Source: Paludibacteraceae bacterium
GTDB lineage: Bacteria > Bacteroidota > Bacteroidia > Bacteroidales > Paludibacteraceae
NCBI GenBank assembly: GCA_017937025.1
Contig: JAGBEJ010000003.1
Coordinates: 1 to 64,000, forward strand
Direction: 5' to 3'
DNA length: 64,000 nt
The translations under genes were made by a program, and so were the position numbers. Shown here in pieces: positions 7,013 to 53,270 of this stretch (position 1 is its first letter; every line of letters begins with the position of its first letter). The notes under the pieces were generated by a model, which made no database searches, had not been told where the DNA came from, and worked only from the letters and a program-made list of their open reading frames with translations.

Positions 7013-7295
7013 ACTTGACCGGTGCACTTCGGCTACGCTCAGTGACCGGAAATCAGTGACCGGAAATCAGTGACTAATATTCAGGAAGCCGCTTCGCGAG
7101 AAACCAAACAAACAACAACAAATCAAACAGAATATTCTATTTGAACGATTTGAGCATATTTTGATGGATTTCTGTCCACAGGACACTAATTTGTATCTGG
7201 CGCTTCGACTACGCTCAGCGACCGAAGAAAAATCACTTTTCGGCATTTCGGCTGCGCTTTGTTGGTGCACTTCGGCTACGCTCAGTGAACAGAAG
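7013..7295. repeat. Dispersed intergenic repeat, copy A
   Basis: This element fills the gap 6987-7302. The same 25-base sequence (GGTGCACTTCGGCTACGCTC, then AGTGA) occurs at both ends, 7021-7045 and 7264-7288. Inside are two tandem 14-base units (GTGACCGGAAATCA, 7042-7069), TTTCTCGCGAAGC on the minus strand, and TGTCCACAGGACA (7173-7185). The core of about 160 bases is nearly identical to the reverse complement of the copy at 45.5-45.7 kb. No transposase or long frame is present. Confidence 0.85.
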
Positions 7296-42819: not shown

Positions 42820-44400
42820 TTATCTTATCAGATTGCCGAGAATGTCGCGTGTGATCTGGCGTGTGACAGCCGAAGTGGTGTTCTTAGCCACACGTCCGGC
42901 TATGTCTCTCTTCGTGGTCTTGGTCTTCTTGCCGGTTATGCTGTTGGAAACCTTGGTTCCGATAATCGTTGCCACAGTGGCTGTGACAGCCGTCACCAGC
43001 GCCTTGCCAATCCTGCCGAGAAGCGACTTCTTCTTGCCGTTCGCCTTTTCCTCCTTGGCTTGCGCCTTCTCTAACTCTTTCTGCTCTTTCTCCGCCGCAG
43101 CCTGCTGCTCAGCCGCCTCCGACTCCGCCAGAAGCACCTCAAAAGCGCTCTCGCGGTCAACGGTCTTGTCGTACTTGCCGTAGAGAGCCGAACGGCGCAT
43201 AGCCTCATCGCGCTGTCCTGGCGAAATAGCGCCTATCTGGCTCAGAGGGAACAGGATTCTCGCACGCTCGACTACCGTAGGCGCGCCCTTCTCGTCGAGC
43301 ACCGACACGAGCGCCTCGCCTGTCTCCAGGTTCTGTATGGCGTCCTCGGTTTTGAAGTCGGGATTGGCGCGGAACGTCTCGGCAGCGGCACGAACGGCCT
43401 TCTGGTCCTTAGGCGTGAACGCGCGCAGAGCGTGCTGCACACGGTTTCCAAGCTGTCCGAGTATCACATCCGGTATATCGGTCGGGGTCTGTGTCACGAA
43501 GTATATGCCGACGCCCTTGCTTCGTATCAGTCGAATCACCTGCTCTATCTTATCGACAAGCGCCTTGGAAGTGCCGTCGAAGAGCATGTGAGCCTCATCG
43601 AAGAAGAACACCAGCTTAGGGTACTCCAAGTCGCCCACCTCAGGCAGGCGAGAATACAGCTCGGACATAAGCCAGAGCAGGAATGTGGAGTAAAGCTTAG
43701 GCTGGAGCATGAGGCGGTCGGCTGCGAGCACGTTCATCACGCCTTTGCCTCCTTCTGTCGCCAACAGGTCGCTGATGTCGAAGGCTGGCTCGCCGAAGAA
43801 CTTGTCAGCGCCTTGGTTCTCTAATGCGAGCAACGCACGCTGTATGGCTCCAACGCTTGGCGCTGTTATGTTGCCGTACTGCGACGTGAACTGCGAGGCG
43901 TTCTTAGCCACATAGTCGAGCATGGAGCGCAGGTCCTTCATGTCGATGAGCAGGAGTCCCTTGTCATCGGCTATGCGGAAGACGATGTTCAGGATTCCGC
44001 TCTGCGTCTCGTTGAGGTCCAGCAAGCGCGAGAGCAGCTGCGGACCCATGTCGCTGACGGTGGAGCGCATCGGATGTCCCTGCTCGCCGAACACGTCGAA
44101 GAAACGCACCGGACACGCCTGGAACTGCGGATTCTCGATGCCGAACTCCACCTGGCGCTTCTCGATGAACGACGATGTCTTGCCTGCCTGGCTTATTCCA
44201 GAGAGGTCGCCTTTCATGTCTGCCATGAAACATGGAACACCGGCTTGGCAGAAGCTCTCCGCCAGCACTTGCAGCGTTACGGTCTTTCCTGTACCTGTGG
44301 CGCCGGCTATCAGTCCGTGCCTGTTCGCCATCTTGCCCATGATGCTGATCGGCCCTTTGGAGCCGTGGGCGATGTAAAGTCCTTCGTTTTGTGTAAACAT
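42820..44400 (-). CDS. HerA-like ATPase/helicase, DUF853 (YjgR) family
   Basis: 526 residues. [22 protein letters not shown] in parts ([10 protein letters not shown] near 33-42, Walker A), [13 protein letters not shown] near 58-70, and [13 protein letters not shown] near 262-274 (Walker B) form the FtsK/HerA-type motor. [19 protein letters not shown] near 294-312 is the sensor block. The C-terminal ~120 residues are coiled coil and lysine-rich with a hydrophobic glycine-bearing end, a variable tail. YjgR-type proteins are widespread with no settled role, though their relatives pump or unwind DNA in repair. Monocistronic. Confidence 0.9.
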
Positions 44401-44440
44401 AAGCTATTAGGATAAAAGGTTAATCAAAAAACATGTGAAA

Positions 44441-45316
44441 TCAATTCTTTACAAGTTCCAAAACTTCTTCCTTGAGCAGCGGCTCCAGACGTGAGTAAGG
44501 TATCGTGAACTGCGGCATTCCGCACGCGTACGGCGCTATCTCATACTGCCCGTAGATGAACACCAGGCCGTCCTTCAGGAAGTACGGATTGGTTGACGGC
44601 ATCGGGATTTTACGGTAATCGACTCCGAGCAGCATCTCTCCCAGTTCCTCGTTGCTCTTCACCTCGAAGTACTCCCTGAGTCCTCGCAATATCTCGTTGC
44701 GCAGTTCCTTGGACTTCAGGTTTTTGAAAATCTCTGTGCCAAGGCGTTTGCCAGTCTTGCGGTCGAACGATACTGCGCCGGCGTAAGACAACGGATGAGC
44801 GCCGCCGGCATAGACGCTGCCGCAATCCTCTATCGTGATTATCTTCTCGGTCTCGTAGCTCTTGGCTATGGTGCGTTCGTTCGACATGGAGAAGAAGCCG
44901 TCGTCCTCGCCGCCCATATTCTCGCGCACATCGTCGTACTCCGCCTTCATGTTTGTCAGCAGCGAGTCGTAGTAAACACGCACCACTGCGTCGCCGTCAC
45001 GCAAATCCACCTTTTTCGGACTCGCGCCAAGCTCCTGGGCTATGTACGCGCGGAGCGAGTCCACGAGCACGTCGGGACCGGTGAGCGGATACTGCACCTT
45101 CACATCGACGAGGAAACGTCCGTCGTCGCACGAATACTTGAGCGCGATGGTGTCCATGACCACAGGCACGCTGAGGTCAACCTCCGCCATGCTGTCTGTC
45201 TCTGCCACGACTATCGAATCGGACTGCTCTCCGTCGGCGGCTTTCTTTCCGCACGACGTCATTGCCACCATCCCCACGACGGCAGCCAAAGCTATGATTT
45301 TATCTGCTTTCATCAT
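44441..45316 (-). CDS. DUF4163/DUF3298 lipoprotein (PdaC/RsiV-like)
   Basis: 291 residues. A lipoprotein signal ends MTSC near residue 22. YSCDDGRFLVDVKVQYPLTG near 60-80 opens the DUF4163 part, and GGAHPLSYAGAVSFDRKTGKRL in parts (GGAHPLSYAGAVSFD near 170) is the defining motif of DUF3298, found in the B. subtilis deacetylase PdaC and the lysozyme-sensing anti-sigma factor RsiV. In RsiV this fold binds lysozyme; a similar binding role here is only a possibility. VFIYGQYEIAPYACGMPQFTIPY in parts (QYEIAPYACGMPQFTIPY near 257) is the C-terminal block. Single gene. Confidence 0.85.
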   Translation of the reverse strand: MMKADKIIALAAVVGMVAMTSCGKKAADGEQSDSIVVAETDSMAEVDLSVPVVMDTIALKYSCDDGRFLVDVKVQYPLTGPDVLVDSLRAYIAQELGASPKKVDLRDGDAVVRVYYDSLLTNMKAEYDDVRENMGGEDDGFFSMSNERTIAKSYETEKIITIEDCGSVYAGGAHPLSYAGAVSFDRKTGKRLGTEIFKNLKSKELRNEILRGLREYFEVKSNEELGEMLLGVDYRKIPMPSTNPYFLKDGLVFIYGQYEIAPYACGMPQFTIPYSRLEPLLKEEVLELVKN

Positions 45317-45419
45317 TGAAAATTATAATTCAAAACTTAACAAATATAAGAAATGGGAGTTAAAGTATCAATAAAAGCAAAAAGAAATAGCACAAGAAAA
45401 TACAGAAGTCCGCTCATTT

Positions 45420-45735
45420 CGACTGCGCTCCCTTCGACTACGCTCAGGGACCGAACCACGCCGGTCGCTGAGCGGAGCCGAAGCGCCAAAGTGCACCAAC
45501 TAAGCGACAGCAGAAATACAGGATGCAAATTCTGTGTCCTGCGGACAGAAATCCATCAAAATATGCTCAAATTGTTCAAATAGGATATTCTGTTTGATTT
45601 GTTGTTGTTTGTTTGATTTCTCGCGAAGCGGCTTTCTGAAGATTAGTCACTGATTTTCGGTCGCTGATTTTCGGTCACTGAGCGTAGCCGAAGTGCCGAA
45701 GCACCAAAGTGCACCAACCAAACGGAGCCGAAGCG
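45420..45735. repeat. Dispersed intergenic repeat, copy B
   Basis: This fills most of the 477-base gap 45317-45793, which holds no credible gene. From 45534 to about 45695 it is about 95 percent identical to the reverse complement of 7023-7187: TGTCCTGCGGACA (45535-45547), a conserved stretch of A/T-rich sequence, TTTCTCGCGAAGC (45617-45629), and two tandem 14-base units (TGATTTTCGGTCGC type, 45651-45678). GAAGCGCCAAAGTGCACCAAC (45480-45500) and a near copy at 45700-45719 border the core in direct orientation. Confidence 0.85.
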
Positions 45736-45793
45736 CCTAACATATACGTTTTCACACAAAACAAACGAAAGGTTTGAGTGTGAGAAGAAAAAA

Positions 45794-46201
45794 ATGTATA
45801 ATTGCGCAGTAAAAAACGCGCAAAGACAAAGTGAACAGATGGAGAAATTAGTATTCGGACTGGCTAACCAGCTGATGAGGATAAACCTGGACGACATCGT
45901 CTATGTGAAATCCGACGGCAACTACTCGCAAGTCTGCCTGTACAACGGCGTGAAGCAGACTATGACGATACAGCTGCACTACTTCGAGGACAAGATAAAA
46001 GCCACAAGCAAAGACAACAAGTTCGTGAGAATAGGCAGAAGCGTGCTTGTGAACAAGGACTATATCTGCATGATAAACCTGACGGAAAAACAGCTGCTGC
46101 TGTCGGGCCACAAGATGATGGACAAATGGACGATTAGCGCGTCCAGAGAGGCTCTGAAGGAAGTGAAGGATGAACTTGAAAAACAAGAAACAAGGAGGTA
46201 A
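45794..46201 (+). CDS. Stand-alone LytTR-domain DNA-binding protein
   Basis: 135 residues from ATG 45794; ATG 45839 (MEKLVFGLANQL) gives 120. Residues ~25-120 form a LytTR domain: INLDDIVYVKSDGNYSQV is the first strand block, FVRIGRSVLVNKDYICMIN near 75-95 (in parts FVRIGRSVLVN) the second. There is no receiver domain, so control must come from elsewhere, for instance from the next gene, whose start codon overlaps the stop (TAATG, 1-base overlap). Stand-alone LytTR proteins encoded with membrane proteins form regulator/inhibitor pairs in streptococci. It lies just after repeat copy B. Confidence 0.88.
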   Translation: MYNCAVKNAQRQSEQMEKLVFGLANQLMRINLDDIVYVKSDGNYSQVCLYNGVKQTMTIQLHYFEDKIKATSKDNKFVRIGRSVLVNKDYICMINLTEKQLLLSGHKMMDKWTISASREALKEVKDELEKQETRR

Positions 46202-47229
46202 TGATGATGAACGACAGATATAAGAAAGACGATGTGATAATAATAGACAACGGCGAGGAGCAGACGTCCACTGCCGACAACCGCACCATGCTGATTAACC
46301 CGACCGACGAGGAGCCGCTGTTCTTCATCGAGGACGACGGCGAGGGCGACGGCAACAGCAGCAGGAAAAAGCCGCTGTCGAAAACCATCCTCACAGCCGC
46401 CGCGCTCATAGTCGCGCTGGCTGCCGCCTACGCCGTTTACCACAAGTTCTTCGGACCGGGCATCACAGGCTCGGCGACGCCTAAGGAGAACATCGAGAAA
46501 CTGAAAGCGCCCGCCGTGGACGAGACTCCGGAAGTGGCGATGACGACCGACACCGCCGCCGGCATAAGAATGAACATATACGAACTGAGAGGACTGAAGG
46601 CGAGCATCGAATTCAGAGAGCCGAGCCAGAGCGACAAGAACGTCTATCTCTACAGCGCATCGGCCGACTGGACAGCCGACAAGACATACATCGGCAGCCT
46701 CGTGGCGAACGGCGAGGAAAAGCCTTCGACCGGCGTGTCGAGGCTCGGATACTTCGCCTCAGCCAACGGCAACGAGGTGATAGGCATAGCCAAGAGCGAG
46801 GCGGTGAAGGACTACGTCAAGGAACAAGGCGGACACTTCTTCAGGCAGTTCATCTTGGTGTACAACAGCAGGACGCCGCTCAAGTTCCATCTGCACGGCA
46901 AAGTGGAAAGGCGCGCGTTGGCCATGACCAGAGAAGACATAACCGACGAGAGCGGCATGACGATATACGACAGCCAAGGCAAGGCGCAGACCAAGGAGCG
47001 CTTATACTACGTGGCGACGACGGAGAAGACCACGCTCGAGGACTTCGCCAACGCGCTGAAGACCTACGGATTCACCGACGCGATATACATGACCGGCGGC
47101 AACGCATGCAGCTACTACCGCGACAGCAGCGGCACGCGGCACGACATAGGCGACACATCGAAGCGCACAAGCGAAAGCAAGAGGAAGAAGACGAGAATCA
47201 CACCGTTCCTCGTGTGGAGAAAGCAGTAA
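46201..47229 (+). CDS. Single-pass membrane protein with phosphodiester-glycosidase-like ectodomain
   Basis: 342 residues from ATG 46201; 46204 and 46207 are alternatives, and an AGGAGG at 46193-46198 is best spaced for 46207. Residues 1-60 are an acidic cytosolic part, 62-80 a membrane segment (TILTAAALIVALAAAYAVY), and ~120-315 an outside domain. GYFASANGNEVIGIAKSE (183-200), a GGHFFRQFILVYNSR stretch (210-224), TLEDFANALKTYG (278-290) and IYMTGGNACSYYRDSSG (295-311) resemble the order of blocks in the NAGPA/phosphodiester glycosidase domain (PF09992), whose last block is usually NLDGGGS. The match is by eye. Translational coupling to the LytTR gene suggests a functional pair. A strong terminator follows. 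Confidence 0.75.
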   Translation: MMMNDRYKKDDVIIIDNGEEQTSTADNRTMLINPTDEEPLFFIEDDGEGDGNSSRKKPLSKTILTAAALIVALAAAYAVYHKFFGPGITGSATPKENIEKLKAPAVDETPEVAMTTDTAAGIRMNIYELRGLKASIEFREPSQSDKNVYLYSASADWTADKTYIGSLVANGEEKPSTGVSRLGYFASANGNEVIGIAKSEAVKDYVKEQGGHFFRQFILVYNSRTPLKFHLHGKVERRALAMTREDITDESGMTIYDSQGKAQTKERLYYVATTEKTTLEDFANALKTYGFTDAIYMTGGNACSYYRDSSGTRHDIGDTSKRTSESKRKKTRITPFLVWRKQ

Positions 47230-47255
47230 GCACACACACCCAAAACATAGCCGCA

Positions 47256-47297
47256 AAGGGCGTCCGAACACAAACGGACGCCCTTCTTTTTGTCCAT
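47256..47297 (+). terminator. Terminator after the LytTR/membrane protein pair
   Basis: AAGGGCGTCCG and CGGACGCCCTT form a perfect 11-bp stem with loop AACACAAA, followed by CTTTTTG. Confidence 0.95.
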
Positions 47298-47430
47298 GCC
47301 ACAGACTGCGGAGATGCATTTCGTACATAAAATCGGGGTGTTCATACAACGGAGCCCGAAATGTTTGAACAGACGGATTTATCAATGTAAAATTGCAACG
47401 AAATCAATAAACACAAAGCACATAAAAGAC

Positions 47431-47622
47431 ATGAGAACAAGAAGTTTCGACCCAAGCGATTTCGAAGAATTCTTCGACGCTAAAGAATTGGAAAGCATGA
47501 TGAACGGAATGCACATAACAAGATTCGGAGAATACAGAGACGACGACACCGAGGAATTACAAGCAGACCGGCACAAGAAAGAGAAAGAAAAACAGCAAAC
47601 AAGCTATGGAAACCTTAAATAA
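47431..47622 (+). CDS. Small acidic soluble protein, unrecognised
   Basis: 63 residues from ATG 47431 (MRTRSFDPSDFEEFFDAKELESMM in parts: SFDPSDFEEFFDAKELE). An upstream frame from the terminator region is not credible. The protein is rich in Asp/Glu, then Lys/Glu, with no membrane segment. The stop codon is directly followed by the ATG of the next gene (TAA then ATG), so coupling is likely. No family is recognised. It is the first of six same-strand small genes. Confidence 0.6.
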   Translation: MRTRSFDPSDFEEFFDAKELESMMNGMHITRFGEYRDDDTEELQADRHKKEKEKQQTSYGNLK

Positions 47623-48228
47623 ATGGGTTCAAGAATATTTAGACACAAAACAATCCGGCGGTGCTTAATCGCCTTGATAGCAATCACAAGTATTTTAATA
47701 CTTAATGGATTAGCATATTTATGCGTCTTCCAATACAAGACAGTCGAGAAAATCAGACATCATGAAAATATAAACCTGTATGAAAAAATTAGCATTATGA
47801 CATTGCATACAGGATTATGGACTGTCGGGAACTTGTATTGTCTGGACGCGGCTTATGCAAACTTCAAAATGCTGACGAAGAATGACACAGTTTATCTGCA
47901 TAGCAACAATTGGCTTTCGCCCAAGATAACGAAACGTTTCAACAGCAACAGACTGGGCAAAATGGCGTGGAACGGAAATTCTGACTATGCGTATGATTCG
48001 AAAGAAAAGAACGCAGCCGTATTGCTGAATTATTGCTACTTGAAAGAGGGGAAAATCAACGGCAAACCATGTTACATCGCCATTTGTGAATACACATGGA
48101 AACAGCCTTCGAAAACGCGGTTTAAAATAGGACCTTGTTCTATTACAATTCATGAAGAATTATTCTATGAGTTAGAAAAAATCAATTTGTTACACCCTTA
48201 CACATTAATCTGTTATTATGAAAGATAA
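47623..48228 (+). CDS. Membrane-anchored protein, unrecognised
   Basis: 201 residues. One N-terminal membrane segment (~13-34, CLIALIAITSILILNGLAYLCV) follows a basic stretch (RHKTIRR). The rest (~35-200) would lie outside the cytoplasm and contains several Cys and aromatic residues (DAAYANFKMLTKNDTVYLHSN, KPCYIAICEYTWKQ). LLNYCYLKEGKINGKPCYIA looks like paired beta strands. No known family. Its last 11 bases overlap the next gene. A/T-rich compared with the surrounding chromosome. Confidence 0.65.
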   Translation: MGSRIFRHKTIRRCLIALIAITSILILNGLAYLCVFQYKTVEKIRHHENINLYEKISIMTLHTGLWTVGNLYCLDAAYANFKMLTKNDTVYLHSNNWLSPKITKRFNSNRLGKMAWNGNSDYAYDSKEKNAAVLLNYCYLKEGKINGKPCYIAICEYTWKQPSKTRFKIGPCSITIHEELFYELEKINLLHPYTLICYYER

Positions 48229-48400
48229 ACTGACCACATTGCTTTTAGCGATTTTCTGCATTCCATGCGTGATAGTTGTATTACTGTTGGTGTTCGACAT
48301 ACACATACCCGGCGCGATAGAGGAAAAACTGTTCGTATGGATTTTGGTGCAAGTTCTGTTGTACCCAGTGTTCAAACTGATCATGCGATTCATAAAATGA
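48218..48400 (+). CDS. Two-span membrane peptide, unrecognised
   Basis: 60 residues with two membrane segments (~7-27, TLLLAIFCIPCVIVVLLLVFD, and ~38-57, LFVWILVQVLLYPVFKLIM). It begins inside the end of the previous gene (11-base overlap) and its stop overlaps the next start as ATGA. Tight overlaps on both sides argue for real, coupled translation. No family is recognised. Confidence 0.6.
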   Translation: MKDKLTTLLLAIFCIPCVIVVLLLVFDIHIPGAIEEKLFVWILVQVLLYPVFKLIMRFIK

Positions 48401-48888
48401 TAAATTATGAGCAAACTAAAAGATTCGACACTAATATGGAACAGATAATATTCGCAATACTATGTCAACTGTTGGCGATGCTCGGAGCAGCATTCAATCT
48501 TTCCTATGTAGAAATAAGCGTGATACTATGTTTAATAATAGTGCCGATTGTGTGCATACTCTCAGCTGTGCCGATTATGATAGGGACATTCCGAAACTTC
48601 ACACAGAAAAACACCCGATATAGCATAATGCGAATCATCTTGTCCATCATATACATCGGTGTTTATGTGTACTTATTCAAACAATGCTGCACACACTATT
48701 TCCCAACGGGAACTATTGATTACAATTATGCTTTCGAGTTATGCAAAAACGACTTGATACACATAGCTGAGATTTGCAACACCAGCTATGCTATGGTCAA
48801 TCTAATAATCTACGTTATCGCATTCGGAGCAATATTAATCCTCAATGAGATATTAGGATTTATAGCCAATAAAAAGAAACTATTTTGA
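48397..48888 (+). CDS. Four-span membrane protein, unrecognised
   Basis: 163 residues from ATG 48397 (MINYEQTKRF), which overlaps the previous stop as ATGA; ATG 48436 (MEQIIFAIL) is possible. Four hydrophobic segments are visible: ~15-35, ~43-63, ~77-95 and ~130-150. KNTRYSIMRIIL and NKKKLF are basic and would lie inside. No signature of a known transporter or of an immunity-protein family was recognised. Spelled tightly with its upstream partners, it ends 71 bases before the transglutaminase-like gene, with two inverted repeats between. Confidence 0.65.
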   Translation: MINYEQTKRFDTNMEQIIFAILCQLLAMLGAAFNLSYVEISVILCLIIVPIVCILSAVPIMIGTFRNFTQKNTRYSIMRIILSIIYIGVYVYLFKQCCTHYFPTGTIDYNYAFELCKNDLIHIAEICNTSYAMVNLIIYVIAFGAILILNEILGFIANKKKLF

Positions 48889-48899
48889 AAAATCAAACA

Positions 48900-48930
48900 G
48901 CTCATGGGGAACTGATTACTCCCCATGGGC
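48900..48930. repeat. Strong hairpin before the transglutaminase-like gene
   Basis: GCTCATGGGGA and TCCCCATGGGC form an 11-bp stem (one G-U pair) with a 9-base loop. No T-run follows, so it may be a processing site, pause or operator rather than a terminator. Confidence 0.65.
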
Positions 48931-48937
48931 ACGATTA

Positions 48938-48959
48938 AACTCATTAAAACAAATGAGTT
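48938..48959. promoter_or_regulatory. Inverted repeat abutting the start of the transglutaminase-like gene
   Basis: AACTCATT and AATGAGTT are perfect 8-bp arms around a 6-base spacer; the second arm ends at the base before ATG 48960. It could bind a regulator or occlude the start in the RNA. Confidence 0.5.
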
Positions 48960-49493
48960 ATGAAAAAGATACTTATTACCACTCTTGTTTTGCTAATTCC
49001 AGTATTATTGATATTAATATCAGGATTAAAATTAGTAAAAACAGGGAATAGGCAAGTTAGTTATTCGCTGACGACAGAAATGCGTAACCAAATAGACAAG
49101 GAAACCCGCGGAATGACCGCCTTTGAAATTCAAATTTACAGCATAGAGTTCACAGCTAAACATTTGGATTTTGCAAAACGAAATGATATTTCAAAGGGAA
49201 AAGCGAATTGTGTTGGTTATGCTCAATTATGCGCCTGCGTTTTTAATCAAGCGTTAGCTTCAAATAAACTTAAAGGATATGCCAAACCCGTAGTCGGATA
49301 TGTGAAACTTGGAAGACTCAATATTTGTCATGTTTTAAGAAGCCTCGTCACATCTAAATACAAAAATTTTGTAAAAGACCATGATTTTGTGGAATTTGAC
49401 TATGAAGGATGGATTGACGGACCTAGATACGCTGACCCATGTGCATACGATTTAATCGGAGACGACTGTATGACATTTGCATTATCATTTTAA
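48960..49493 (+). CDS. Membrane-anchored transglutaminase-like protein
   Basis: 177 residues. An N-terminal hydrophobic segment (~5-22, LITTLVLLIPVLLILISG) anchors or exports it. The pattern KANCVGYAQLCACVF (Cys84), KDHDFVEFDYEGWID (His141) and RYADPCAYD (Asp159) reproduces the Cys-His-Asp order and local sequence of transglutaminase-like/cysteine peptidase domains (GxCxGYA, HxWxE, DP). It is smaller than most such enzymes. It could crosslink, hydrolyse amides or cleave peptides outside the cytoplasm; the substrate is unknown. The preceding six-gene context contains no known partner. Confidence 0.7.
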   Translation: MKKILITTLVLLIPVLLILISGLKLVKTGNRQVSYSLTTEMRNQIDKETRGMTAFEIQIYSIEFTAKHLDFAKRNDISKGKANCVGYAQLCACVFNQALASNKLKGYAKPVVGYVKLGRLNICHVLRSLVTSKYKNFVKDHDFVEFDYEGWIDGPRYADPCAYDLIGDDCMTFALSF

Positions 49494-49559
49494 TTTCTTA
49501 ATTTTGCCTATTTAATATAAAATCAAACATAGTTCAACACACAAAAAACATTTAAATCC

Positions 49560-49808
49560 ATGGCTAAAAAAATCAAAGAAATAATAATAAACATAGGCAG
49601 ATACATAATTGGATACGCATGTCTTCTCATTCTACTTCCATTTATATTGGCGTTTGTCAACGAAATTGGAGAGAGGGAAAAGAGGGGCATACCAGTTTTC
49701 TTGGGCTTCCCTGACGACGACGTGTTCTTTCAAGACGAAGAAAACCGCAGAAAGTATGCAGAAGCAATGGAAAAGATGGAACAAGAGCGAGGAGATTTTT
49801 CGTTCTAA
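49560..49808 (+). CDS. Small single-span membrane protein, unrecognised
   Basis: 82 residues. A basic start (MAKKIKEIII) precedes one membrane segment (~14-33, YIIGYACLLILLPFILAFV), then an acidic, helical tail (DEENRRKYAEAMEKMEQERGD) that would lie on the other side. No family is known. It is the last of the small-gene run and is followed by a strong terminator. Confidence 0.6.
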   Translation: MAKKIKEIIINIGRYIIGYACLLILLPFILAFVNEIGEREKRGIPVFLGFPDDDVFFQDEENRRKYAEAMEKMEQERGDFSF

Positions 49809-49820
49809 AACAAAAATCAT

Positions 49821-49854
49821 AAAAAATCCCGAGCCTTAAGCCCGGGATTTTTAT
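49821..49854 (+). terminator. Terminator after the small-gene run
   Basis: AAAATCCCGAGC, a short loop and GCCCGGGATTTTT form a hairpin with one mismatch or wobble, followed by ATTT; A-rich on the other side. Confidence 0.85.
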
Positions 49855-49911
49855 TTATATCTCATTGTGTATCAACTTGTAAGCCAGGGGATTTCCAATA
49901 AGCGCAAGGGA

Positions 49912-51258
49912 TTATGCGAATATGAAGGCACTCTCAAGCCAATAGCACAGGATTCCCGCAATGTAGCCAACAAAAGCAATCCATGAGATTCTCTTCATAT
50001 ACCAACCAAATGTGATTTTCTCCAACCCCATAACAACAACGCCTGCCGCGCTGCCGACTATCAGCATGGAGCCGCCAACGCCTGCGCAATAAGCCAGCAA
50101 CTGCCAGAATACGCCGTCGACAGCCATGTCGCCCACTGGCGCTACGGAGTACATGCCCATGCAGCCAGCCACAAGCGGCACATTATCTATTATGGATGAA
50201 AGCATGCCTATTATTCCTGTCACCAGATAATGGTTGCCGTCGAACAGCGTGTTGAGTCCTTCTCCCATCCTTGTCAACACGCCTATTGTCTCTAAGCAAG
50301 CCACAGCCATAAGAATACCGAGAAAGAAGAGTATGGTGGACATATCAATGCGTGTGAGCATCTGTGTGACACGTTTCTGCATAGCTCCTTTTTCTTCTGG
50401 CTCCTTAAGGTGTGCGTAGAACAATTCTGTAACCGTCCACAGTACGCCCAGGACAAGCAAAATGCCGACAAATGGAGGCAGGTGTGTTATCGACTTGAAT
50501 ATCGGCACAAACATAAGTCCGCCGACGCCGAGGAAGAAAATGATCTTGCGTTGCATTTCAGTCAACTCGTCTGTCCGAACCGTCTGAGCCATCTTGCCAG
50601 TAAAGGCGAGCTCGCCTTTCAATGAAAGCGAAAGCAGATAGGCTGGTATGACCATAGACACAAGCGAAGGGACGAGCAGTTTCAGTATAACCCCGGCTGC
50701 CGTTATCACTCCTTTGTTCCAGAGCATGATTGTGGTCACGTCGCCAATTGGCGAGAATGCGCCTCCTGAATTTGCTGCTATGACTACCAACGAGGCATAT
50801 ATGATACGGTCGTTACGCTCGCTAACCAATTTGCGCAGAATCATAATCATAACAATGGATGTCGTCAGATTGTCAAGAATTGCTGAGAGGCAGAACGTCA
50901 TGAATGCAATGCGCCACAACAACGAGCGCTTGCTCCGTGTCTGAATCATGTTGCGCACGAAATTGAAACCGCCGTTCTGGTCCACAAGCTCCACTATGGT
51001 CATAGCTCCCATAAGGAAGAACAACGTGGTGCTGGTTGAGCCCAAGTGGCGCTCTATAACCTCGCTGACAGCCGACGCCACATGGTCGCCAACGGCAGCT
51101 GGCAAGTAACTGTCTGGGGCTATCATGAACAAGCTCCACGTCAAAACCAGCATCAGCAGGGCTACAGCCGCCTTGTTGATTTTCGTGACACTCTCGATGG
51201 CTATGAAAAAGTAGCCTATGCAGAAAACGATAACTATCGCTAATGTAAGTGTACTCAT
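49912..51258 (-). CDS. nhaD: Na+/H+ antiporter NhaD
   Basis: 448 residues with about 12 membrane segments. NhaD exports sodium in exchange for protons. KINKAAVALLMLVLTWSLFM near 27-46 (NKAAVALLM), IVELVDQNGGFNFV near 105, LSAILDNLTTSIVM near 145-158 and AANSGGAFSPIGDVTTIMLWNKGVI in parts (NSGGAFSPIGDVTTIMLW near 178) are the family core; the DNLTT and SSIIDNVPLVAGCMGMY (near 365, IIDNVPLVA) blocks each carry a charged membrane residue of the transport site. The leader region is discussed as a separate feature. Confidence 0.95.
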   Translation of the reverse strand: MSTLTLAIVIVFCIGYFFIAIESVTKINKAAVALLMLVLTWSLFMIAPDSYLPAAVGDHVASAVSEVIERHLGSTSTTLFFLMGAMTIVELVDQNGGFNFVRNMIQTRSKRSLLWRIAFMTFCLSAILDNLTTSIVMIMILRKLVSERNDRIIYASLVVIAANSGGAFSPIGDVTTIMLWNKGVITAAGVILKLLVPSLVSMVIPAYLLSLSLKGELAFTGKMAQTVRTDELTEMQRKIIFFLGVGGLMFVPIFKSITHLPPFVGILLVLGVLWTVTELFYAHLKEPEEKGAMQKRVTQMLTRIDMSTILFFLGILMAVACLETIGVLTRMGEGLNTLFDGNHYLVTGIIGMLSSIIDNVPLVAGCMGMYSVAPVGDMAVDGVFWQLLAYCAGVGGSMLIVGSAAGVVVMGLEKITFGWYMKRISWIAFVGYIAGILCYWLESAFIFA

Positions 51259-51443
51259 GATTTACAATAATTTTGCATGTGAATAAAGCGCATTCTTCGG
51301 CAGTCCGAAAAATGCTTTTTTATGATTAAATCGCTGTGCGAGAAGACAGCAACAGCCATCTCCAAGTTTTTATGCTTGGCACAGTTGTTTTTGTTTTTAG
51401 ATTATGAAAAGATAGTATCTCCCTTATGCGGGAAACAACTATG
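51259..51443. other. Gap with inverted repeats upstream of nhaD
   Basis: No gene is seen. AAGCGCATTCTTCGG/CCGAAAAATGCTT (51286-51317) and a composite stem CTGTG(51334-51338)/CACAG(51380-51384) enclosing CCAAG/CTTGG (51362-51379) could fold in the nhaD leader RNA. Confidence 0.4.
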
Positions 51444-51827
51444 CTAACAGATGATGTGTCTCAGCGCGATGACATAGTAATCGCTCGAGACTGACGTGCA
51501 GAAAGGGGCTGTCTCAAGCCTCCATCTGCTGTCGTTGGGAGATTTTAGTGTTTTGACAATATTCCGTAGAGCAAGGCTTATGCTTCTTGCACTGCGCTCA
51601 ATTCTGGAGAACTGCGTTGTGATAATACGCTGTGGGCGTGAGCCGCAGACGTTATAAAGCAGTGTGAGGTCTGTCAGAGTCGCCTCGTGGTTATGCTGGT
51701 CGGATTGTGACATTATGATGGATGACGCAGACTGCGACGCATAGGTGCGGTCCACCTTTTCTTGCCAGTTCGTCAGAACCATCAGAAGCATCGCTGCTAT
51801 TATTGCCAGCAGTCCTTTCTCTTTCAT
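51444..51827 (-). CDS. Exported or anchored protein, unrecognised
   Basis: 127 residues from ATG 51827; a GTG directly upstream is possible. The N-terminal hydrophobic stretch (~5-19, GLLAIIAAMLLMVLT) is a signal or anchor. The rest shows SASSIIMSQSDQHNHEATLTD, then a basic helix (SRIERSARSISLALRNIVKTL) and a tail ending YYVIALRHIIC. No family is known. Similar short exported proteins of Bacteroidales are often annotated as hypothetical. Moderately confident that it is coding because of its signal-like start and clean frame. Confidence 0.5.
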   Translation of the reverse strand: MKEKGLLAIIAAMLLMVLTNWQEKVDRTYASQSASSIIMSQSDQHNHEATLTDLTLLYNVCGSRPQRIITTQFSRIERSARSISLALRNIVKTLKSPNDSRWRLETAPFCTSVSSDYYVIALRHIIC

Positions 51828-51901
51828 CACAAGACCATGTTTATAGTCGTAAAGTTACTTGTTTTCATGAAAGAATAGCAACATCAACAAATTTAATCTT
51901 T

Positions 51902-52678
51902 TCAAATTTCATTGTGTATCAATTTATAGGCTATGGAGCCGGGCTGCGGCGACGCCGGACAATCGTCGCGGCTGAACCACTGGGCATCGGCTATCTCGTC
52001 GGGCTGGAGGCGGAATTCTCCGCTCTCGTACTCGGCTGTGAAGGCGAGCATAAGCTGGTCGGGGAAAGGCCAGCTCTGGCTGCCGCGGTAGCGCACGTTG
52101 CGGACAGTCAGCCCCGTCTCCTCAATAATCTCGCGCACGACAGCCTGCTCCGCCGACTCGCCGCTCTCGATGAATCCGGCTATGCAGGCGTAAATGTCCT
52201 GGTTGCGCTGAACGTGGCGCGCGAGGAGTATCTTGTCGCCACGGCTGACGAGCACGATGACACACGGCTCGATGCGCGGAAAGAACAGCTTATGGCAGTG
52301 CGGACACTCGCGGGCGGTGAACTCGGCGCTGTCGGCGAGCTCTGTGCCGCACACCGAACAGAAACGCACGTCGGCACGCCAGTTGGCAAGCGCCTTGGCA
52401 CGGGCTGCCTTGAACGAGAGCGTCTCGCCGTGGGTGTGGAAGAACTGACGCATGGCTACCCTCTCGAAACCTTGCGGCAGAACAGCATCGGGCGCCAGCA
52501 CCACAGCCGACAGAGAAAAATCCTTCTCAGTAAATGAATCCAACACCTCGACACTTGACAAAAACACATCAAGGTCGGCTGACGATAGCGCAGCGCCGTC
52601 GGTCTTGAGTATTATATCCCTGCCGGAAACTACAAAAACAGGGAAATCCTCACCCATGCTCAATGATTCCAATGCCAT
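51902..52678 (-). CDS. nudC: NAD(+) diphosphatase (Nudix, NudC type)
   Basis: 258 residues from ATG 52678 (MALESLSMGEDF). NudC hydrolyses NADH/NAD and removes NAD caps from RNA. The zinc-ribbon is complete: FCSVCGTEL near 94-102 and ECPHCHKLFFPR near 113-124 supply four cysteines. The Nudix box is GFIESGESAEQAVVREIIEETGL in parts (GFIESGESAEQAVVREI near 158, EETGL near 175). The SQSWPFPDQLMLAF block near 193-206 (SQPWPFPxS in NudC) is the NADH-pyrophosphatase signature and separates it from other Nudix enzymes. Confidence 0.95.
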   Translation of the reverse strand: MALESLSMGEDFPVFVVSGRDIILKTDGAALSSADLDVFLSSVEVLDSFTEKDFSLSAVVLAPDAVLPQGFERVAMRQFFHTHGETLSFKAARAKALANWRADVRFCSVCGTELADSAEFTARECPHCHKLFFPRIEPCVIVLVSRGDKILLARHVQRNQDIYACIAGFIESGESAEQAVVREIIEETGLTVRNVRYRGSQSWPFPDQLMLAFTAEYESGEFRLQPDEIADAQWFSRDDCPASPQPGSIAYKLIHNEI

Positions 52679-52699
52679 AATGACTTTTTTTATCCCTGA

Positions 52700-52707
52700 C
52701 AAAGATA
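52700..52707 (-). promoter_or_regulatory. -7 promoter box of nudC
   Basis: TATCTTTG on the minus strand, 21 bases upstream of the ATG at 52678. Confidence 0.55.
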
Positions 52708-52754
52708 AGAAATCGCTATCGATTATTCTTCAGTCATTGCTCTACGTCCTGTTG

Positions 52755-53270
52755 CTACTCGTTTATTATCGTCTTGGTCGAGTAGTCGGAGTACACGATT
52801 ATCTGCACACCAGCCTCAGCCCCGTTTATCTTTTGCCCGAGCAGGTTATATCTCGCTATCTCTGTCACACCCTCTTCTGACGCTCTCGTCGCAGCATTCA
52901 CATCTGTTCCAGAATCTGGACTTGCCGTGCCTGTCGTCACATTGGCCGTCACTGCCTCATCACTCTCGCCGTCTCTCGACATTATCGCTACCTGCACTTG
53001 CTCGTTTTGCATGTACGCAGTATTTGATGACGAGTAGCTCTTTGCCGAAACCTCTAAATCAAACTTGTCCAGCACATAACCCATATTACCAAGCGTGTTT
53101 ATAATGTCACCCATGTTGCGCAAACGAGGAAATACTTCTTCCAATCCGTCTGGTATGTCACCACGTACAACAGTACCTGAACCATCTTGTTTTATATACA
53201 CATAACTTTTTACTCCGAAAGCCATGGTTGACGCAAGGCCAAGCATTAACAATAAGCACAATCTTTTCAT
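52755..53270 (-). CDS. Exported protein with variant C-terminal sorting-like tail
   Basis: 171 residues from ATG 53270 (an upstream in-frame ATG at 53276 exists). A signal peptide covers ~1-19 (MKRLCLLLMLGLASTMAFG). The middle is unrecognised (VKSYVYIKQDGSGTVVRGD; LRNMGDIINTLGNMGYVL), with a Thr/Ser/Asp-rich linker (~105-135). The last 35 residues (ITEIARYNLLGQKI-like: EIARYNLLGQKINGAEAG, then VQIIVYSDYSTK) resemble the ends of some T9SS cargo (xYNLxGQxV...GxxIIxYSDG) but lack the usual Lys-rich finish. Function unknown. Confidence 0.65.
   Translation of the reverse strand: MKRLCLLLMLGLASTMAFGVKSYVYIKQDGSGTVVRGDIPDGLEEVFPRLRNMGDIINTLGNMGYVLDKFDLEVSAKSYSSSNTAYMQNEQVQVAIMSRDGESDEAVTANVTTGTASPDSGTDVNAATRASEEGVTEIARYNLLGQKINGAEAGVQIIVYSDYSTKTIINE

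Follow-up and report, generated by a model that had tools for sequence, protein, structure and literature searches.

The question raised by this locus is whether a run of six small, unfamiliar genes forms an accessory system of the cell envelope or is a random collection of orphan genes, both of which had been offered as readings in a first-pass annotation of the same DNA. The run lies on contig C11 of a nearly complete genome of 2.21 Mb (G000), within the 64-kb stretch that was analysed and that is referred to here as the window. ORF calls and hydropathy reproduced the layout as it was first described, with six same-strand ORFs at 47431-49808. The TAA of gene 1 is followed without a gap by the ATG of gene 2 (47620-47625), genes 2 and 3 overlap by 11 bases (48218-48228), genes 3 and 4 share an ATGA overlap (48397-48400), and proteins 1 to 6 carry 0, 1, 2, 4, 1 and 1 membrane spans, respectively. 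The flanking terminators and the A/T-rich composition were likewise recovered, the latter as a GC content of 35-39% inside the run against mostly 47-61% in the flanks. The features of the locus are as follows.

47256-47285: terminator hairpin on the 5' side of the run, from a hairpin search
47365-47395, forward strand: promoter-like sequence of the Bacteroides -33/-7 kind, TTG-N-TAAAATTG, upstream of gene 1; found by pattern search, a consensus match only and weak evidence
47431-47622, forward strand: gene 1 (P0001), 63 residues, acidic, soluble, without a family
47623-48228, forward strand: gene 2 (P0002), 201 residues, one N-terminal span and a domain of about 165 residues; family A5, with an 'NLYEK-S' motif
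48218-48400, forward strand: gene 3 (P0003), 60 residues, two-span membrane protein
48397-48888, forward strand: gene 4 (P0004), 163 residues, four-span membrane protein, internally duplicated
48900-48959, forward strand: two stable hairpins between genes 4 and 5 (z=-6.5)
48917-49501, forward strand: exchangeable segment, in which gene 5 is replaced by other genes in the sister genome G005
48960-49493, forward strand: gene 5 (P0005), 177 residues, predicted membrane-anchored cysteine enzyme of the transglutaminase superfamily
49504-49518, forward strand: remnant TTTTGCCTATTTAAT of the 3' end of a 105-residue gene that is complete in G005, from alignment with L061
49560-49808, forward strand: gene 6 (P0006), 82 residues, one span
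49822-49852, no strand assigned: terminator-like hairpin closing the run and facing a convergent antiporter gene

The hairpins at 48900-48959 stand back to back, the second reaching as far as the gene 5 start codon, and could possibly serve in attenuation or represent a scar of exchange.

None of the six proteins gave a significant match in Pfam, NCBIfam, PHROGs or PADLOC; weak Pfam matches (DUF5684, a beta-propeller and MARCHF6) lay below the cut-offs and were discounted. The six ORFs were judged to be genuine genes, beyond chance ORFs, since proteins 1-4 and 6 are kept in the sister genome and diverged members of families 2, 4 and 5 occur in other genomes. The named homologues come from Bacteroidales. 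The survey of relatives comprised 1,710 genome searches, with many genomes repeated, mostly one family and one order covered and gene calls in the other genomes based on ORFs; its member counts are to be read as "at least".

Protein 5 had been described as transglutaminase-like, which profile comparison bore out. A profile of five family-5 sequences matched transglutaminase-core domains from related genomes with an hhalign P of 1.9e-5, compared to 0.12 for the reversed control profile and 0.53-0.83 for five shuffled ones, and residues C84, H141 and D159 of P0005 aligned with the catalytic Cys, His and Asp in this profile-profile comparison. The same three residues are conserved in every family-5 homologue long enough to judge, and the family, with homologues in four other genomes, has in common the motifs NCVGYA and KDHDFV and a downstream Asp. 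In the predicted model of P0005 (pLDDT 75), C84 opens a helix, H141 opens a strand and D159 follows closely on the next strand. As judged from these alignments, protein 5 belongs to the transglutaminase superfamily. A match to the transglutaminase core (PF01841) above the curated cut-off was seen neither in any family-5 member nor elsewhere in the genome, and P0005 is thus placed in the superfamily and not in the Pfam family. It shares with that core a Cys-His-Asp triad in the same order, the CVGYA, DHDFVE and DP motifs and the profile similarity, and differs from it in being too diverged for a Pfam match and in having, ahead of the His, a family-5-specific insertion of some 25 residues that contains an invariant Cys (C123 in P0005). 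No significant match to protein 5 came from a Foldseek search of the PDB. At least one family-5 copy may be decaying, as the G066 homologue is interrupted by an in-frame stop.

The two membrane-protein families that recur with exported enzymes are uncharacterised. Protein 4 is built from a short membrane module present twice, its two copies of 'F..C...L......SY..(I/V)(N/S)V' lying in halves that match each other (hhalign P=2.5e-5; model pLDDT 86). Eleven full-length members of family 4 were aligned, with 22-97% identity to gene 4, and half-size relatives of 46-103 residues were found elsewhere. Family 4 has no Pfam or PDB relative above cut-off, no CPBP match and no significant Foldseek match in the PDB; family 2 has no Pfam match above cut-off, and PDB sequence searches with families 2, 4 and 5 gave no significant match. 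Members of families 2 and 4 were assigned by profile, the one at G508:C22 being distant (E=8e-7). A literature search, in which few subscription papers were covered, found nothing on either family. Other settings of family 4 include a 67-residue half-module (L043:7208-7411) directly before a DUF4153 and LRR protein, and a gene placed directly after two adenine methyltransferase-like genes with a restriction-like gene between them, as read from sequence (L028:4269-7685).

Comparison with G005, a genome of the same genus, revealed which parts of the run are stable. The same locus is found there, with a DNA identity of 96-98% up to window position 48916 and of 99% from 49502 on, and proteins 1-4 and 6 differ by 19 synonymous and 15 non-synonymous codons in total. 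Gene 1 is kept at 98% and gene 6 is kept on the far side of the exchanged segment, the left edge of which, where identity ends at 48916, falls in the first hairpin of 48900-48959. In place of gene 5, G005 carries a lipoprotein with an archaemetzincin signature (Peptidase_M54, E=4.7e-5; 23.9 bits, narrowly short of the 24.4 cut-off) and a C92/YiiX enzyme (E=4.7e-26). Another lipoprotein gene begins after these and is cut off by the contig end, and a membrane protein of 105 residues is encoded on the other contig. This slot was read from two contigs with an assembly gap inside, and holds the M54-like and C92 genes and at least two more. The sequences indicate that genes 1-4 and 6 are a frame whose enzyme slot is exchanged by whole genes, because gene 5 is replaced in G005, the last 15 bases of the 105-residue gene still stand ahead of gene 6 in the window, and a stretch of 17 bases past the gene 5 stop recurs after the M54 gene in G005. 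A fixed system of six genes is not supported, given the exchange of the gene-5 slot between sister genomes, the occurrence of some homologues of genes 2, 4 and 5 apart from one another and the recovery of proteins 1, 3 and 6, in the relatives survey, only here and in G005; the linkage of these three proteins to the set is seen in the sister genome alone.

At the left junction in the sister, a 59-codon open frame (P0007; L024:1391-1567, reverse strand) reads like a protein fragment, but no convincing relative of it turned up. A repeated cassette-border element was rejected, as the 81-base junction sequence occurs once in the genome and, apart from the orthologous edge in the sister, nowhere else in the genus; no integron-like site was thus seen. 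A search of G001-G003 for an empty site revealed none, their only match being to an antiporter of about 50% identity at a different place. A phage or plasmid-borne origin is not supported, as relatives are near absent from such sequence: viral contigs searched with families 5, 4 and 2 contained none, and phage and plasmid records, searched with families 4 and 5 and, for the plasmids, with protein 2 as well, contained only one family-4 gene, on a Prevotella replicon. Separately, window positions 7053-7197 match (88%) L024:4780-4921, in the part of the sister contig that corresponds to roughly 45.4-45.6 kb in the window, which suggests a dispersed intergenic repeat.

Families 2, 4 and 5 were also found linked to one another and to exported enzymes in other genomes. 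A single ORF in G093 (L007:5122-6186) has a family-5 domain at its N-terminus and a family-4 domain at its C-terminus, and in an uncultured Bacteroidales assembly (L002) a 46-residue family-4 half-module (E=7e-9) begins a few bases past the stop of a family-5 gene; the two families are adjacent in the window as well, with the gene order reversed. Two congeners from another genus, G048 and G131, carry family 2, family 4 and a C92 gene adjacent in that order, with short gaps or overlaps, and an M23 enzyme upstream. Family 2 recurs beside C92 and M23 enzymes, adjoining the former in G261 and the latter in G091. An M48 enzyme adjoins family 4 in G302 and another lies near the fused gene in G093, and an anchored L,D-transpeptidase-like protein lies 1.6 kb from the family-4 gene of the Prevotella replicon. 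The slot enzymes that were read in sequence have an N-terminal span, a signal or a lipobox.

These associations exceed expectation. Among 17 genomes searched, seven of nine C92 genes have a family-2 or family-4 gene no more than about 5 kb away, where 0.05 would be expected; because G048 and G131 are congeners, the seven amount to about six independent cases. In the surveys of families 2 and 4, an enzyme is the immediate neighbour or fusion partner at 6 of 11 independent loci (binomial P of about 2e-5 at 6% expected), the loci without an immediate enzyme being G158, G218, G013, G508:C34 (with a C92 gene at 4.6 kb) and G115. The expectation of 6% assumes two neighbours and takes roughly 3% as a general figure for the share of peptidase-type genes. 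Co-occurrence of the genes in other genomes, raised earlier as a check on the system, has two sides: families 2, 4 and 5 do share neighbourhoods, but homologues also occur apart (G158, G218, G013, G115, G066 and G082), including family-4 genes without an adjoining enzyme in G158, G218 and G013 and family-5 genes without family 4 in G066 and G082.

The surroundings of some of these genes were also noted. The family-2/C92 pair of G261 (L069:1-11000) lies beside RhuM-like, zinc-ribbon, dynamin-like GTPase and DnaK-like genes, named from their sequences, in a setting that resembles a defence island. Similar islands with DUF1810, LRR, Sel1/TPR and family-4 genes occur on a Prevotella replicon and in another family of the same order (L038:5207-9260 and L039:1034-9692), the first additionally with DUF6717 and YbjN-like genes. 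L039:1866-2393 (reverse strand) encodes an anchored protein of 175 residues with CAGY...GHIAVYDG motifs, like a CHAP/NlpC-type amidase and without a Pfam match.

Fusion, adjacency and repeated association with further envelope enzymes tie genes 2, 4 and 5 together, so an envelope-located accessory system, one of the readings initially offered, remains the best one, and the fusion of families 4 and 5 and the recurrent 2-4-enzyme neighbourhoods argue against a random collection of orphan genes. We hold with moderate confidence that the run is one version of a modular Bacteroidales envelope gene set, consisting of a membrane platform and an exchangeable envelope enzyme. The enzyme families, the 4-5 fusion, the recurring neighbourhoods and the exchange between sister genomes can be read directly from sequence, and the gene set probably modifies or controls something in the cell envelope. 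Families 2 and 4 would be its recurrent part, and the neighbouring slot would hold one or more exported membrane-anchored or lipoprotein enzymes exchanged as whole genes, of the transglutaminase superfamily here, M54-like and C92 in the sister, and C92, M23 or M48 elsewhere. Protein 4, together with protein 2, may sit in the inner membrane as a partner that holds the enzyme, presents its substrate or restrains it, and the enzyme may cut or transfer acyl or peptide groups on envelope proteins, lipopeptides or wall material. Both the substrate and the mechanism of this pairing are what we infer; an envelope enzyme with a membrane partner is the safe statement. A single common substrate is doubtful, because the enzyme types of the slot are chemically very different (cysteine versus metallo-enzymes), and as metallo-enzymes also occupy the slot, no role in lipoprotein acylation is claimed.

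The pairing could work like LnsA/LnsB of Staphylococcus aureus, without being a member of that system. There, lipoprotein N-acylation requires both a YiiX-related enzyme and a multi-span protein (PMC7387801). The likeness consists of a papain-like, YiiX-related enzyme in need of a separate multi-span membrane protein and of mosaic loci between related strains. LnsB, however, is CPBP-like, a match that family 4 does not show, the window enzyme belongs to the transglutaminase superfamily and not to the permuted NlpC/P60 type (a C92 enzyme is present in the sister's version), and lnsA and lnsB are non-contiguous whereas the genes here are adjacent or fused. Lnb (DUF4105), a Bacteroides lipoprotein N-acyltransferase, is a relative of permuted NlpC/P60 enzymes according to its citation in PMC12994826. 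For YiiX-type enzymes, which bind a fatty acid, an action on lipid-peptide bonds has been proposed (PMC3142127), and the roles of C92/YiiX-type enzymes in bacteria are poorly understood (PMC3142127, PMC7387801).

Alternatively, the exchangeable enzymes could be envelope-acting antibacterial toxins, with family 4, and perhaps family 2, as immunity proteins gathered in islands, as is common for immunity genes; we consider this a serious rival, if a fairly unlikely one. Whole-gene swaps between sister genomes would fit an arms race, and permuted papain-like C92, M23, L,D-transpeptidase-like and transglutaminase-like enzymes overlap known antibacterial effector types. A T6SS toxin of the permuted NlpC/P60 kind, Tox-Act1, has been published together with its two-span membrane immunity protein, Imm-Act1 (PMC12994826), and immunity islands are known in Bacteroidetes (PMC3482391). 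The first likewise combines a permuted papain-like enzyme with a small membrane protein, but Tox-Act1 is delivered by a T6SS, whereas here there are export signals, no T6SS and a changing type of slot enzyme. The polyimmunity loci (PMC3482391) are also variable islands of small genes, but in the present islands exported enzymes recur and no known Imm family was matched. The enzymes begin with export signals or anchors and lack a delivery domain, no ORF in 44000-53000 encodes a long delivery protein with a toxin C-terminus, and PADLOC gave no match. The T6SS protein TssD is absent from G000 and from all genomes with a linked locus, being present only in G082, where the family-5 gene stands alone, and the fusion of family 4 in cis to an enzyme in G093 would be unusual for immunity. 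Contact-dependent interference, suggested in the first-pass annotation, is not supported, as neither a delivery domain at the locus nor TssD here or in the linked-locus genomes was found. For peptide maturation, also suggested there, no precursor-like peptide was evident.

It is also unlikely that the run is a set of unrelated accessory genes which share A/T-rich insertion spots and not a function. Such an origin would explain why genes 1, 3 and 6 are unlinked elsewhere and why unlinked copies exist, and is consistent with the A/T-rich composition of the run and with the mixed islands containing DUF1810, Sel1, LRR and YbjN-like genes. It leaves unexplained, however, the fusion of families 4 and 5 and the order 2-4-C92, conserved with short gaps or overlaps in another genus, and the family-specific clustering of C92 genes speaks against it. 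Very improbable is a release of surface proteins, in which P0005 would trim a surface protein as a periplasmic protease like LapG, controlled by a receptor that the membrane proteins form: LapG (Peptidase C93) is an exported transglutaminase-like cysteine enzyme of the same Cys-His-Asp class and the nearest candidate with a name, its structures being among the top Foldseek matches of P0005, with the highest probability (0.21-0.23), but these are not significant (E of about 0.7-0.9, TM 0.33), no significant sequence match was found, neither the LapD/LapA partners nor any LapD-type (GGDEF/EAL) protein or large adhesin is seen at the locus, and the metallo-enzymes of the slot would be left unexplained.

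Returning to the modular envelope gene set, a more general form of it can be put forward tentatively, in which families 2 and 4 are an undescribed membrane platform that has spread through Bacteroidales and works with any adjoining exported cysteine or metallo-enzyme, such that a cassette swap between close relatives would alter envelope modification. Two unannotated membrane-protein families thereby gain a testable role as partners of envelope enzymes, and direct experimental material exists in the natural 4-5 fusion and in the sister loci, which are nearly identical and have their main difference in the enzyme slot. If true, this would open a general route into the function of C92/YiiX-type enzymes in Bacteroidales.
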